IMG/VR virus record: IMGVR_UViG_3300047322_000009
Span: 1-20,266 of that record
From: a virus
DNA length: 20,266 nucleotides
Direction: 5' to 3' (one strand)
Under the pieces are notes generated by a model that ran no database searches, was not told the origin of the DNA, and was given only the letters and a program-made list of their open reading frames with translations. Position 1 is the stretch's first letter. Each line of letters starts with the position of its first letter. This document shows, one piece after another, positions 403-15,658 of the stretch. Position numbers and translations under genes: made by a program.

Positions 403-1617
403 TTACAGGGTGGCAGTGATCATGGCCTTGACTGCCGCGTAAAGCTCCTCAAGCTCAGCGCGCACGGCTTCTTTGGTCTCGTCGCTGGCGTGCTCAAAGT
501 CCTCGGGCTTGGCCTTGACTACGTCCCGCTTGAGCTTCTGGACGAACGAGCGCACGCGGACATCCGGCGACTCAGCCTCAGTGGTCTCCTCGGTCTCCTC
601 GGTCTCCTCGGTCTCCTCGGGCGTGCCCGCTCCCCCGGACGTCAGAGCCTTTTTCGCGTGGTACAGCTCGCGCTGAAGCTCACCGTGCCCCTTGAGCTGC
701 GTACCGTACGTGTCAGCGATGAACTCCGAGACGCTGACATCCTCGGGCTTGGCCTCAAGTGCCTTGGCGTAGCGCTTCTGCTCTTCAGTGTCACTGTCCA
801 GCGACCGGAGGTACTGCGCCCGGACGTCAGAGCGCTGGTGCTGCACGGCACGCTGAAGCTTCTTCAGAGCCTCCTCTGTGTCGTAGTCCTGCTCGAACCC
901 CTCCCCTGCCTTGGCGTACAGCGCGCGAGCCGCTTCCTTGGCTGCATGCGAGGTGCCGAGGATGTCAGGGTTGTTGTCCTTGTTGGGGATACGGCGCCAC
1001 ATGTCCAGCATGATCGAGGCAACGTCCTTGGCAAGGTCACTGGTCTTCAGGTGAAGGTTCACACCCTCGGCCACCCGAACGGCGCCATCGGCGATCAGTT
1101 CCGTGACCCCGTTGTAGATGCTGTAGTCCTTGGGGTCGACCGTGCTGACCTCAGCCTTGGGCTTGGCCTTGGCCTTGGGCTCGGGCTTGGGCTGCGCGGC
1201 AGCAGCCTGTCGGAAGTCCTGTCCAGCCTTGGCCTTGTACCCCGCCCACGTCTTACCCTCGGGCGTCTTGCCCCCGCGAGGCAGGGACGAGATGAGGGCC
1301 TTGGTCTCCTTGTCCAGTTCCGCGAGCCCCTCAGCGTTCTCAGCCTCAGCGAGCGAACGGGCACGCTCGATGTTGGCGCTGATCTGCTCCATGGTGGTCT
1401 GTTCGGGGGTCTGCTCCACCGTCTCAGTGGTCGTGTCGTTGCTCTCAGTCACGGTCTCTCCCTCGTTCTTTTCAATCCAGATCAGGCACTTTTTGCAGGA
1501 CACCGGGGCGTCAGTGCCCTTGAATCCTGCATCGCCCTGCCATGGGTTACAGGCGGGAGACGAGACCTGGTCACCGGGCGTGTAGTGGACCTTACCGCCG
1601 TTCTTGACCACGTTCAC
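403..1617 (-). CDS. Hypothetical protein with N-terminal zinc-ribbon-like segment, 404 residues
   Basis: Starts at GTG 1617 with GGAGGG eight bases upstream, about 30 bases after the predicted transcription start of the promoter at 1656-1685. Residues 1-50 look like a small metal-binding module (H11, C23, C41xxC44) of the kind seen as stand-alone short proteins in Streptomyces and its phages. Residues 56-404 are mostly charged helix. They include a Pro/Ala/Lys/Glu linker (about 142-155), a central alpha-helical region and an acidic EET repeat near residue 335. A second strong ribosome binding site (GAGGGAG) precedes an in-frame GTG at 1452, so a 349-residue short form is possible. I do not recognise the main domain. 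It lies after the lysis and kinase genes in its own transcription unit, so it is unlikely to be a core virion part; that is inference. Confidence 0.75.
   Translation of the reverse strand: MNVVKNGGKVHYTPGDQVSSPACNPWQGDAGFKGTDAPVSCKKCLIWIEKNEGETVTESNDTTTETVEQTPEQTTMEQISANIERARSLAEAENAEGLAELDKETKALISSLPRGGKTPEGKTWAGYKAKAGQDFRQAAAAQPKPEPKAKAKPKAEVSTVDPKDYSIYNGVTELIADGAVRVAEGVNLHLKTSDLAKDVASIMLDMWRRIPNKDNNPDILGTSHAAKEAARALYAKAGEGFEQDYDTEEALKKLQRAVQHQRSDVRAQYLRSLDSDTEEQKRYAKALEAKPEDVSVSEFIADTYGTQLKGHGELQRELYHAKKALTSGGAGTPEETEETEETEETTEAESPDVRVRSFVQKLKRDVVKAKPEDFEHASDETKEAVRAELEELYAAVKAMITATL
583..618 (-). repeat. Four tandem 9-bp repeats coding for Glu-Glu-Thr
   Basis: Four exact copies of GGTCTCCTC (plus strand) follow one another within the 404-residue gene and encode an acidic Glu/Thr run. 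Such a repeat can change copy number by slippage without breaking the frame. Confidence 0.9.
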
Positions 1618-1655: not shown

Positions 1656-1685
1656 ACTCTAGCGGGTCCCGAAATCAACTGTCAA
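1656..1685 (-). promoter_or_regulatory. Sigma70-type promoter for the leftmost transcription unit
   Basis: Read on the minus strand there is TTGACA (1685-1680), an 18-base spacer and TAGAGT (1661-1656). Transcription would start near 1648 and reach the GTG at 1617. It sits just after a strong intrinsic terminator (1720-1759) and touches a 24-bp palindrome (1687-1710) on its upstream side. It is the best promoter match I found in the window. Confidence 0.65.
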
Positions 1686-1686
1686 A

Positions 1687-1710
1687 CCACATACGAAAGT
1701 TCGTAGGTGG
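1687..1710. promoter_or_regulatory. Palindromic operator-like site, copy 1 (promoter-proximal)
   Basis: The core TACGAAAGTTCGTA is at 1692-1705, flanked by CCAC on the left and GTGG on the right, giving an imperfect 24-bp dyad. One base separates it from the -35 box of the promoter at 1656-1685. A protein bound here could block or recruit RNA polymerase. It is one of five copies in the window. Confidence 0.65.
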
Positions 1711-1719
1711 AGAACGCAG

Positions 1720-1759
1720 AAAAGCCCCTGACCTGCGGTTATGTCCGCAAGCCAGGGGC
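1720..1759 (-). terminator. Intrinsic terminator after the dNMP kinase gene
   Basis: A 15-bp stem (arms 1745-1759 and 1724-1738, two G-U pairs in minus-strand RNA) closes on a 6-base loop and is followed by TTTT at 1723-1720. It begins six bases past the kinase stop codon and separates the virion/lysis operon from the leftmost unit. Confidence 0.88.
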
Positions 1760-1765
1760 CGAGTG

Positions 1766-2314
1766 CTACAGGTTGTCAAGGATGGCAGCGTGTAGCTGAG
1801 CAACCGTGCCGTTGTTATGGATCGTGACGTCAGCGGCGTACCCATCTAGGGCCGTTTCGCTGGAATGCTGGGCAGCGCTACCGGTCATGATCTCGGGCCG
1901 GACGATCCGCACCAGCTTGAAACCACGGGCGCGCAACATGCGAGCCTCGTTCTCGTACCGGACGTCAGTGACAACAACCGGGATGTTCCACCGTTCCGCG
2001 TTGTGGACCTTGCGGCCGAGTGCGCTGGTCCAGTAGTCCTCATCGAACTCACGCTGAGTCTGGCCGATGCTCTGAAGCAACCGGCGCACCTCGGGGTACG
2101 TGTCCTTTGCGTATTCCCAACCCACGTCAGCGATAAGGGCCGTGAGCCTCACAGTGACCCCGTAGCCCGTGGGGACGTAGGGGTTGATGCTCAGCGCCAT
2201 CTCTTTCAGCGGATCGGCGAACGCGAGCCGGACGTAAGCGCGGGTGCGTACCAGGTGCAGCGCTGCCGTGTCCTTGCCCGAACGCGCCTTGCCGATTAGC
2301 CCGATGTTGTGCAA
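1766..2314 (-). CDS. Deoxynucleoside monophosphate kinase-like P-loop protein
   Basis: The 182-residue product begins MHNIGLIGKARSGKD, with a Walker A loop of the GxxxxGKD type at residues 8-15 that is characteristic of phage dNMP kinases (T4 gp1-like and relatives). A later TDVRYENEA stretch (about residue 118-126) is also typical of this group. Such enzymes phosphorylate dNMPs to dNDPs in the cytoplasm and raise the nucleotide supply for phage DNA synthesis. The start is TTG at 2314. GGAG lies five bases upstream but is buried in a 10-bp hairpin (2318-2343). The gene follows the lysis cassette and ends in a strong terminator. Placing a nucleotide-metabolism gene after lysis genes is unusual but occurs in actinophages. 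An AAA-family adenylate-kinase-like protein of other specificity cannot be excluded. Confidence 0.85.
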   Translation of the reverse strand: MHNIGLIGKARSGKDTAALHLVRTRAYVRLAFADPLKEMALSINPYVPTGYGVTVRLTALIADVGWEYAKDTYPEVRRLLQSIGQTQREFDEDYWTSALGRKVHNAERWNIPVVVTDVRYENEARMLRARGFKLVRIVRPEIMTGSAAQHSSETALDGYAADVTIHNNGTVAQLHAAILDNL

Positions 2315-3835: not shown

Positions 3836-3858
3836 CCACCTACGAATTTTCGTACCTG
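3836..3858. promoter_or_regulatory. Palindromic operator-like site, copy 2 (before the lysis cassette)
   Basis: Core TACGAATTTTCGTA at 3841-3854 has CCACC on its left; the right flank is CCTG instead of the usual GGTGG. It lies in the 77-base gap between the last tail-region gene (stop at 3860) and the endolysin start at 3782. I see no convincing promoter beside it. Confidence 0.6.
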
Positions 3859-10933: not shown

Positions 10934-10957
10934 TCACCTACGAACTTTCGTATGTGC
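10934..10957. promoter_or_regulatory. Palindromic operator-like site, copy 3 (overlaps the chaperone stop codon)
   Basis: Core TACGAACTTTCGTA at 10939-10952 with flanks TCACC and TGTGC. It overlaps the last codons and TAG stop of the chaperone fusion (stop at 10940-10938) and ends 23 bases before the tape measure start codon. It is the only copy that intrudes on coding sequence. Confidence 0.6.
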
Positions 10958-11635
10958 GAACAGAGCCGCCCAAAGCAGCGTTTGCCTTCAGTACCTCTTG
11001 CCAGATCTCTTGCGGCGTCTTCACGCGCTGATACCACACGGGTACAAAATCCTTGGCCTTGAGCTTGGCGCCGTTCGCGTTCGCCACAGTCGCAGCGATG
11101 ATGGAAGCGCTAATGTCCGTACGCTGGTTCGCGTCGAGGGGACCGGTCACCCGCTCGTACGCCATCCACTCAGTGAGTTCTCTGGACGACATACGAGCGA
11201 GCAACTCGGCCACGGGCATACCCAGATGGCCAGCAAGACGGAAGTAAAACTGCCGCTCTGGACGGCCTACTAGTTTCCCGTCAGTTCCTCAACGTCGTCA
11301 TCCGTCAGACCGGAAAGACGAGAGGCTACCTCGACCACGCGAGTAAGGGCCTGGGCACTCTTTTCGCCGAGTCGCTTGACCTCAGCGTCAGAGCGAAACA
11401 GCCGCTTGCCGTTCGCGTCGACCAGGCAGAACGCAGCGAGGCGCGCGCGATACTTGTCAAGGGCCTTGTCCTTGGCAACGGCAGACATGTTGTCATTCAT
11501 GAGGGAGGCCTCAAACCGGTCCCGGTCCGTGCCGTTCATGCCCTGAACGAGAACCGTACCGCCCCACTCCGGGACGTCGACAGGCTCACGCTGAAGATCG
11601 TCAGCGTTCAGGATGTCGTCAGCGGATAGGTACAT
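10938..11635 (-). CDS. Tail assembly chaperone long form (gpGT-like), made by -1 frameshift, 232 residues
   Basis: The first 121 residues are those of the short chaperone. Ribosomes slipping back one base on GGGAAAC (11279-11273) leave the frame just before tandem TAG stops. They read 111 more codons to TAG at 10938, starting LVGRPERQFYFRLAGHLGMP. The part after the slip (FYFRLAGHLGMPVAELLARM, then ELTEWMAYE) is the classic T-domain motif of actinophage tail chaperones. By analogy with lambda gpG/gpGT, the long form binds the tape measure and recruits tail tube subunits, at a set ratio to the short form. An ATG at 11219 lies within this motif and is unlikely to be an independent start. Confidence 0.88.
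11270..11635 (-). CDS. Tail assembly chaperone short form (gpG-like), 121 residues
   Basis: Starts at ATG 11635 with AGGAG nine bases upstream, overlapping the gap after the tail tube stop codon at 11640. The protein begins MYLSADDILNADDLQREPVD and is acidic at its end (LTDDDVEELTGN), the usual make-up for this family. It coats the tape measure during tail assembly and is absent from the virion in lambda. The last two sense codons, GGA and AAC, form the slippery site for the long form. Position between tail tube and tape measure supports the call. Confidence 0.9.
   Translation of the reverse strand: MYLSADDILNADDLQREPVDVPEWGGTVLVQGMNGTDRDRFEASLMNDNMSAVAKDKALDKYRARLAAFCLVDANGKRLFRSDAEVKRLGEKSAQALTRVVEVASRLSGLTDDDVEELTGN
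11273..11279 (-). promoter_or_regulatory. Programmed -1 frameshift site GGGAAAC
   Basis: In zero frame the site reads ACG-GGA-AAC-TAG-TAG, so G-GGA-AAC fits X-XXY-YYZ exactly. Six bases later GCCG (11266-11263) can pair with CGGC (11255-11252). The loop bases CCAGA (11261-11257) can pair with TCTGG (11226-11222), which would give a pseudoknot that promotes slippage. Confidence 0.9.
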
Positions 11636-13960: not shown

Positions 13961-14004
13961 GGGTGTTACTCCTAAGTCGGTAGGGGTGGGGCAAGGGGCG
14001 GGGG

Positions 14005-14028
14005 CCACCTACGAACTTTCGTAGATGA
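14005..14028. promoter_or_regulatory. Palindromic operator-like site, copy 4 (after the major capsid gene)
   Basis: Core TACGAACTTTCGTA at 14010-14023, flanked by CCACC and GATGA. Here the symmetry extends outward (GGGGG and CCCCC at the ends, about 14000-14033), so the leftward RNA can form a stem of about 16 bp with two G-U pairs. It may act as an RNA hairpin as well as a DNA site. It lies in the 88-base gap between the capsid gene and the 57-residue gene. Confidence 0.65.
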
Positions 14029-14048
14029 CCCCCACTCACTCAGTCAGG

Positions 14049-14924
14049 TCAGGAAGGCAGACCCGTGGTGACGTCAACGTCCATGACCGCTAGGGCCTCC
14101 GGGCGGACGACCTTACCGCCGTACAGGTGGAGACCCTTAATCGCGTCGCCGAAGCTGTCCTGCGGACGGTACGCCTCAACCTTGTTGATCTGCTCCGCGT
14201 ACGTGGTGGCGATGGAGTGACCAGCAACCACGAAGTTGGAAACGGCCGGAAGAGTGCCAGCGGTACCCTGCGGCAGGTTCAGCGAGACCATGACCGAGAA
14301 CCCGAGGATGGAACCAACCTCGCCGTTCTGGATCGGCTGAGTGGAACCGTACTGGTTCGCGTAGATGAACCGCGTGTCCTGAAGGATCAGCGAGTAGAAC
14401 TCGGGCGACACGACCAGGAATCGGCCAGCCGCAGGAACCTTGGACTTGTCAAGCTTGAGCTTCAGCGCAAGCACGATCTTGTACGCAGCGTCAGCAGTCG
14501 CCGCAGCACCCGGGGTCAGCACGTTGCCAGCGTTCGTGGTCATCAGACCAGCGAGGAACGTGTCAGTGACCTCAGCCAGACCAAACGCCGAGTCGTTCGC
14601 AGCGCGGTTCAGAAGCTGCCCACCGTCGCGAACCTGACGCGCGTCAACGTCGTCGACCTCGAACGCAAAGTACTTGGCCTGGTCGACCACAAGCGTGTCG
14701 TCGGTCGTGGTCAGAGTCTGCGGCGCGATGACCGTAGAGTTCTTGGTGTAGGTGCTGATCGTCGGACGCGCAAGGTGCCCGATGTGGACGGTATCGCCGT
14801 ACTGCGCGATGTCGCCCTCATAGTCACGGTTGATAATGCCGCCCTGACCGAAAACCAGGTTCTCGCGTAGGGCAACTAGGAGGTCTGCCGACCAAACCTC
14901 GGGAATGAAAGTGTCAACGGCCAT
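14049..14924 (-). CDS. Major capsid protein, P22 coat-like, 291 residues
   Basis: Begins MAVDTFIPEVWSADLLVALR, followed by NRDYEGDIAQYGDTVHIGHL and DQAKYFAFEVDDVDARQ. This is a recognisable pattern for the P22-coat-type branch of HK97-fold capsid proteins in actinophages. It starts at ATG 14924 with AAAGG about ten bases before. The length is normal for the group. No protease gene is seen, which fits assembly with a separate scaffold (next gene upstream) and no prohead maturation cleavage; that last point is inference. It should be the most abundant virion protein. Confidence 0.93.
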   Translation of the reverse strand: MAVDTFIPEVWSADLLVALRENLVFGQGGIINRDYEGDIAQYGDTVHIGHLARPTISTYTKNSTVIAPQTLTTTDDTLVVDQAKYFAFEVDDVDARQVRDGGQLLNRAANDSAFGLAEVTDTFLAGLMTTNAGNVLTPGAAATADAAYKIVLALKLKLDKSKVPAAGRFLVVSPEFYSLILQDTRFIYANQYGSTQPIQNGEVGSILGFSVMVSLNLPQGTAGTLPAVSNFVVAGHSIATTYAEQINKVEAYRPQDSFGDAIKGLHLYGGKVVRPEALAVMDVDVTTGLPS

Positions 14925-14934
14925 GCCGAAAGTG

Positions 14935-14948
14935 CCTTTCTAGAAAGG
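14935..14948 (-). promoter_or_regulatory. Perfect 14-bp palindrome holding the capsid gene ribosome binding site
   Basis: CCTTTCTAGAAAGG contains the AAAGG used by the major capsid gene. The RNA could form CTTTCTAGAAAG or, exclusively of it, GAAAGGCACTTTC. Both stems are short, so any effect would be modest. Confidence 0.4.
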
Positions 14949-14959
14949 GGTAGTTGGTG

Positions 14960-15604
14960 CTACTTAATGCCGAGCACGTTGTTTAGGCGTCCCTCAGCCT
15001 TGGCCTTGTGGATTTGCTCCGGCGACATGCGCTTGAGGTCATCCCGGGTTAGCTGCTTGGGTCCAGCCGCCTTGCGCGCTGCGCCACCATCACCAGTGCC
15101 CTGAAAGCGTGGCCGGGCCGTTGCGGCTAGGTGTGGCTTTCGGGTTAGAAGTTCCTCGATAGCGTCCGTAATCTCGTCTGCGTCAACGTCGCCTGACTCA
15201 TCAACCTCGAACTTGTCAAGGTCGAGGAAAGCCAGCGCGTCAGCGGGATCGGCAAACTTGCCAGCCGCAGCAGCCTTAATCTCAGACTTGAGGATTCGCG
15301 AATTGGCCTTAGAAAGGGCCTCCCGCGTAGCCTGCGCCTTAATCTGATCGGCGTCAGGAGTCTCGTTCTCGCCCTTAGGGGCGCTCTCCAGTGCGGCGAG
15401 TCGCTGCTCTAGCTCCTGCCGCTTCGTACGCTCCTCGCGCCACTTGCCCTTCATGGAATCCAGCGCCTTTTTACCGGCATCGCCGAGATTCTCGGCACCT
15501 TCCGGATTCGGCTCGCTGTCATCCTCGGTTCCCGCGCCGTGCTGCTCACCAGTGGCAGTCTCATCGGTCACGGTCTCGTCAGTGACAGTCTCGTTTTCGG
15601 GCAT
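14960..15604 (-). CDS. Scaffolding protein, 214 residues
   Basis: Starts at ATG 15604 with GGAGG seven bases upstream. Highly acidic N-terminus rich in Thr and Glu; a coiled coil (about 53-77, KWREERTKRQELEQRLAALE); a middle acidic section; and a C-terminal basic helix (DDLKRMSPEQIHKAKAEGRL) typical of scaffold proteins that bind coat. It guides procapsid assembly and leaves afterwards. Position directly before the major capsid gene supports the call. It lacks a protease motif. Primary sequence is poorly conserved in this class, so identification rests mainly on composition and place. Confidence 0.87.
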   Translation of the reverse strand: MPENETVTDETVTDETATGEQHGAGTEDDSEPNPEGAENLGDAGKKALDSMKGKWREERTKRQELEQRLAALESAPKGENETPDADQIKAQATREALSKANSRILKSEIKAAAAGKFADPADALAFLDLDKFEVDESGDVDADEITDAIEELLTRKPHLAATARPRFQGTGDGGAARKAAGPKQLTRDDLKRMSPEQIHKAKAEGRLNNVLGIK

Positions 15605-15634: not shown

Positions 15635-15658
15635 TCAGGTACGAAAGTTCGTATGTGG
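15635..15658. promoter_or_regulatory. Palindromic operator-like site, copy 5 (before the scaffold gene)
   Basis: Core TACGAAAGTTCGTA at 15640-15653 with flanks TCAGG and TGTGG. It fills most of the 66-base gap between the MuF-like gene (stop at 15671) and the scaffold start at 15604. No promoter-like hexamers are evident beside it. Confidence 0.62.

Follow-up and report, generated by a model that had tools for sequence, protein, structure and literature searches.

The window, by which we mean the whole 20,266-base virus record that was analysed, carries on its minus strand a compact control region at 1656-1759 (Table 1). Read along that strand, an intrinsic terminator with a 15-bp stem and TTTT is followed by ten nucleotides (1719-1710), a 22-bp dyad, the dinucleotide GT and the hexamer pair TTGACA-18-TAGAGT. 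In the terminator stem GCCCCTGGCTTGCGG (1759-1745) pairs with CCGCAGGTCAGGGGC (1738-1724), and the folding energy of -33.3 kcal/mol (z -5.7) was equalled by none of 200 shuffled sequences. The initial annotation had described a 15-bp terminator with TTTT, which was correct to the base; it had also placed a palindrome ten bases further on, abutting TTGACA-18-TAGAGT, and every one of these elements was found where it had been put. Transcription plausibly starts near 1648, and the open reading frame at 1617-403 begins 31 nt downstream of this presumed +1. The sequence GTAAG lies at 1648-1644, about 7 nt downstream of the -10 hexamer, and occurs at the same place in L060, L062, L063, L066 and L068; it recurs at c and early promoters and perhaps marks the start-site region.

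Table 1. Genes and sequence elements of the control region and the dispersed dyad copies in the window.
Feature	Position	Strand	Basis or remark
Repressor gene c, 404 aa, GTG start	403..1617	-	PF25746
-10 hexamer of the c promoter, TAGAGT	1656..1661	-	18-bp spacer from -35
-35 hexamer of the c promoter, TTGACA	1680..1685	-	Consensus match
22-bp dyad CACCTACGAACTTTCGTATGTG, presumed c operator	1688..1709		2 bp (GT) upstream of -35
Terminator T-run, TTTT	1723-1720	-	Sequence
Intrinsic terminator hairpin, closing the lysis/kinase unit	1724..1759	-	Stem 1759-1745/1738-1724, 6-nt loop
Deoxynucleoside monophosphate kinase gene, last before the terminator	1766..2314	-	dNMP kinase
Second dyad copy, before the endolysin gene, without promoter	3837..3858		Core match
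Third dyad copy, before the long tail gene, without promoter	10935..10956		Overlaps the 3' end of ORF 10938-11219
Fourth dyad copy, after the capsid gene, within a longer GC-rich hairpin	14006..14027		-32.4 kcal/mol, z -7.4
Fifth dyad copy, before the scaffold gene, without promoter	15636..15657		Core match

By its sequence, the gene driven by this promoter is the repressor gene c of a phiC31-like Streptomyces phage. Its product matched the Pfam family PF25746 (E=2.5e-73, 247.8 bits against a cut-off of 27), as did c of six relatives, including those of the divergent contigs G019 and G020. It follows the lysis and kinase genes, with the endolysin gene further upstream of the kinase, and it is read in the same direction as the late genes. 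The window stops soon after c; in relatives an exonuclease gene follows, and the order endolysin, kinase, c, exonuclease is that of phiC31, phiBT1 and Rowa, with small extra genes in places. The initial annotation had spoken of a switch point made of a terminator, an operator-like palindrome and a promoter without naming gene c; these three elements are supported, and the label is apt because the promoter belongs to a phage repressor gene.

The closest cultured c is that of Rowa, at about 45-48% identity. Megablast of the window returned phiSASD1 as its sole match, over the capsid and scaffold genes (14049-15310, 75% identical), and a distant blastn search with the 300-bp region gave no matches; relatives were therefore reached through c and the dyad. 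Scans of genome contigs with short peptide patterns found no c relatives, and the contigs with a single copy of the dyad core (G006, G007, G008, G017 and G018) were left out as probably unrelated. Several members of the sample are close relatives (G012/G013 and G011/G016, together with G009 and G015, whose c genes are near-identical to that of the window), so P values are indicative only. The N-terminal region of c (VHY...CxxC) is a module that varies on its own (window from 1617 downwards, L059, L052 and L054; alignment A1), and in G002 residues 1-49 of c are 59% identical to phiC31 c while the remainder is far more diverged. Near the C-terminal part of c, a short 9-bp tandem repeat at 581-625 of the window encodes a run rich in Glu and Thr.

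The dyad is repeated in the window. Its core, TACGAAnnTTCGTA, occurs in five exact copies where 0.0004 were expected at the base composition of the window, and five sites lie within 4 mismatches of the 22-mer against 0.2 in shuffled sequences. These five dyads refer to the fragment at hand; longer relatives carry up to 15 copies. Repeated dyads were also counted in phiC31 (15), phiBT1 (16), Vash (15), Shawty (14), Shady (13) and Rowa (16). They lie largely between genes, in the window (4 of 5, with 4% expected), in phiC31 (14 of 15, with 9% expected) and in Rowa (14 of 16, with 8% expected). Four of the window copies stand at junctions comparable to those of phiC31 dyads: the copy at 1688 to that of a dyad preceding c, the copy at 14006 to that of one following the capsid gene, the copy at 10935, which adjoins the long tail gene, to that of one where the tape-measure gene ends, and the copy at 3837 to that of one in front of the endolysin gene.

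The sequence of the dyad differs among these phages. The core is CGAAnnTTCG in the window and CTCACGTGAG in phiC31 and phiBT1, and the full phiC31 operator TACTCACGTGAGTA, which is the dyad of phiC31, phiBT1, Vash and Shawty (14-16 copies each), was not found in the window; conversely, the window consensus, with up to 4 mismatches allowed, has no match in phiC31. Shady has CACCTAG-N10-CTAGGTG in 13 copies. The sites of Rowa, CACCTcCGAAAATcCGTAGGTG, are very like those of the window. When the dyads were aligned on their centres, the outer CCTA..TAGG was mostly common to all, with CCTC often on one side in Rowa, and the interior differed. The window resembles phiC31 and phiBT1 (Lomovskayavirus) in having a PF25746 repressor, the same gene order and intergenic dyads at matching junctions, including the one that precedes c, and resembles the immunity repressor region of Rowa (Rowavirus) in c itself, in the similar sites and in promoter-type sites of the same spacing (three or more in Rowa). 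Rowa differs in having no TTGACA at its c promoter and one additional gene separating kinase from c. The sites of the phiC31 subgroup are not joined to a promoter in the manner of the window clade, and c of phiC31 is 683 aa long against 404 aa in the window. Several in-frame repressor isoforms would be expected of a phiC31-type c system; c of the window is short. An extra dyad lies inside c in phiC31 (L052:19770), phiBT1 (L054:18892), Shawty (L056:18549) and Rowa (L051:19832), whereas the short c of the window has none. Judged from these comparisons, the phiC31-type arrangement of repressor and operators is already known, and it is the operator sequence that is diverged here.

The link between c and the dyad extends to c genes of much lower similarity. 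For two divergent c genes, those of G019 (28% identity) and G020 (23% identity), we read the dyad just upstream of c and then counted it across the whole contig. The G019 dyad, CCGACTCACGTGAGTCGG, occurred 16 times and the G020 dyad, CACTCAAnTTGAGTG, 13 times, and the reversed-pattern control gave 0 in each contig. The G019 count was partly foreseen, three dyads having been visible beforehand in the 6.7-kb locus; that of G020 was not. By eye, a terminator-like hairpin precedes the dyad at both c loci, and in G019 TTGCGT-18-CATTGT begins 2 bp past the c dyad. As far as the sequences can be read, the order terminator, dyad, promoter and c persists across several operator sequence classes, distant relatives included.

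Because the promoter drives c, the dyad at 1688-1709 is very probably a c operator, the counterpart of the repressor sites that are scattered over the phiC31 genome. This reading is supported by the dyads at the same gene junctions as in phiC31, by the counts in G019 and G020, and by the persistence of the layout. That another phage or host regulator binds the dyad instead seems quite improbable to us. Structure prediction and PDB searches recognised no DNA-binding fold in c, and the phages also encode a sigma-like gene and other regulators, which would leave room for such a factor. However, the dyad and c occur together across sequence classes, and the copy beside c is always of the type that is repeated in that genome. 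phiSASD1 has neither an annotated gene between kinase and exonuclease nor a repeated dyad. PMC4557955, moreover, describes the dispersed sites of phiC31, 18-30 in number as in L5, as repressor sites, and places the phiC31 repressor downstream of the virion genes. Since phiSASD1 shares its capsid and scaffold genes with the window at 75% identity but lacks the dyad and shows no c gene, the head genes have a history different from that of immunity.

We also considered whether the hexamers might be a chance match, with the dyad acting only as an RNA hairpin or as a roadblock between transcription units. A promoter consensus scan found one match in the window, whereas shuffled sequence would give 4.4 in 20 kb, so that the match is unremarkable by count alone, and elsewhere many dyads belong to larger hairpins. 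It is the position and the conservation of the promoter that give it significance: the dyad, a TTG-type -35, the spacing and the -10 recur before c in most contigs of the clade despite diverging surroundings, and the dyad of the window, lying upstream of the promoter, would be outside the c transcript. A chance match is therefore highly improbable.

The spacing of promoter to dyad recurs at other sites. A TTG-type -35 with a TANNNT-like -10 at 16-19 bp comes after 26 of the 131 sites counted in the window clade, Rowa and Shady, against 0.5% of random positions and a single case on the opposite strand at the same 131 sites, and nearly all of the 26 promoters begin 1 or 2 bp past the 22-mer. The initial annotation had held the copy at 1688-1709 to be the only one beside a clear promoter; this is true of the window, where the other four dyads have none, but not of its relatives, in which further promoters show the same geometry. 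In several contigs the dyad promoters other than that of c directly follow the dCMP-deaminase gene, in the early region, where phiC31 too has a dyad (34433); the small genes that these early promoters precede gave almost no family matches. The two kinds of promoter differ in their -35. In a hand tally, TTGACA was present at the c promoter in 9 of 10 clade contigs (G010 has TTGCGC) and at none of the 15 other promoters of the same geometry, which have TTGCGC, TTGCGA, TTGTGC, TTGTGG or TTGAAA. In G003, one half of the dyad alone is left before the c promoter; this, the TTGCGC of G010 and the different arrangement in the phiC31 subgroup speak against the reading of the dyad as a c operator.

These features bear on the direction of the effect, which the initial annotation had left undecided between activation and occlusion of the polymerase. 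The position that it gave for the site stands, and the geometry, shared with early-region promoters of relatives, together with the consensus -35 at c makes repression the better reading. It is sterically possible that c activates its own promoter, as lambda CI does at PRM, because the site lies upstream of the -35 and overlaps neither hexamer, and the strictly kept spacing between dyad and -35 would suit such a role. We nevertheless regard activation as unlikely, since the consensus -35 and good -10 of the c promoter set it apart from promoters that depend on an activator, and since the same geometry is found at early promoters with a weaker -35, which a repressor should silence, so that one geometry would have to produce two opposite effects. 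Activator sites, in addition, are not usually centred near -50.

Taken together, the region at 1656-1759 is likely to be the promoter-operator of repressor c, where c would bind the dyad and regulate its own synthesis negatively. The terminator would halt the transcripts of the late unit (head, tail, lysis and kinase genes). Just beyond it, we infer that c binds the 22-bp dyad upstream of the -35, probably as a dimer or a larger multimer. Occupying about -61 to -40, the protein would stand in the way of RNA polymerase at the -35 and so limit c synthesis. The same dyad would keep the early-region promoters off in the lysogen, while the consensus -35 at c could permit limited continued expression where weaker promoters are shut. 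The promoter-less dyads of the late region would add further points of silencing, and may block elongation.

In their distribution, the promoter-less dyads among the head, tail and lysis genes resemble those repressor sites of L5 and R4 that are not at promoters; for these phages PMC6550527 and PMC10276819 report many dispersed intergenic repressor sites, a few at promoters and most elsewhere. In L5, however, a monomer binds an asymmetric site, according to PMC4557955, whereas the sites of the window are dyads. The R4 repressor is annotated as L5 gp71-like, and the 24 kb of R4 that we examined contained no repeated dyad of the window type. We rejected stoperators of the L5/R4 type because the window sites are symmetric and the repressor belongs to PF25746, not to the L5 gp71 type.

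About a quarter of the dyads stand at the top of longer GC-rich hairpins. Extension by at least 5 further pairs, at least 4 of them GC, was found on the transcribed strand at 46 of 191 sites, compared with 0.6% of random positions. The site of this kind in the window spans 13995-14040, and some of those in phiC31, phiBT1 and Shawty end in or precede T-runs (e.g. phiC31 34779). Some operators may thus double as terminators or attenuators. It is possible, though doubtful, that a single operator has three roles, tuning c at TTGACA, silencing early genes at the weaker TTGCGC, and serving as operator and terminator at once at the tip of a hairpin; at such hairpin-tip sites, repressor binding and termination would then act on the same bases.

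For an uncultivated group of phiC31-like phages, these results identify what is likely to be the immunity system and predict its operator. Several operator sequence classes within one module layout provide a comparative set for the co-change of repressor and operator specificity, and the classes can be used to ask which phages should be hetero-immune. One dyad combined with two kinds of -35 hexamer would, by reporter test, show directly how different outputs can arise from a single repressor.
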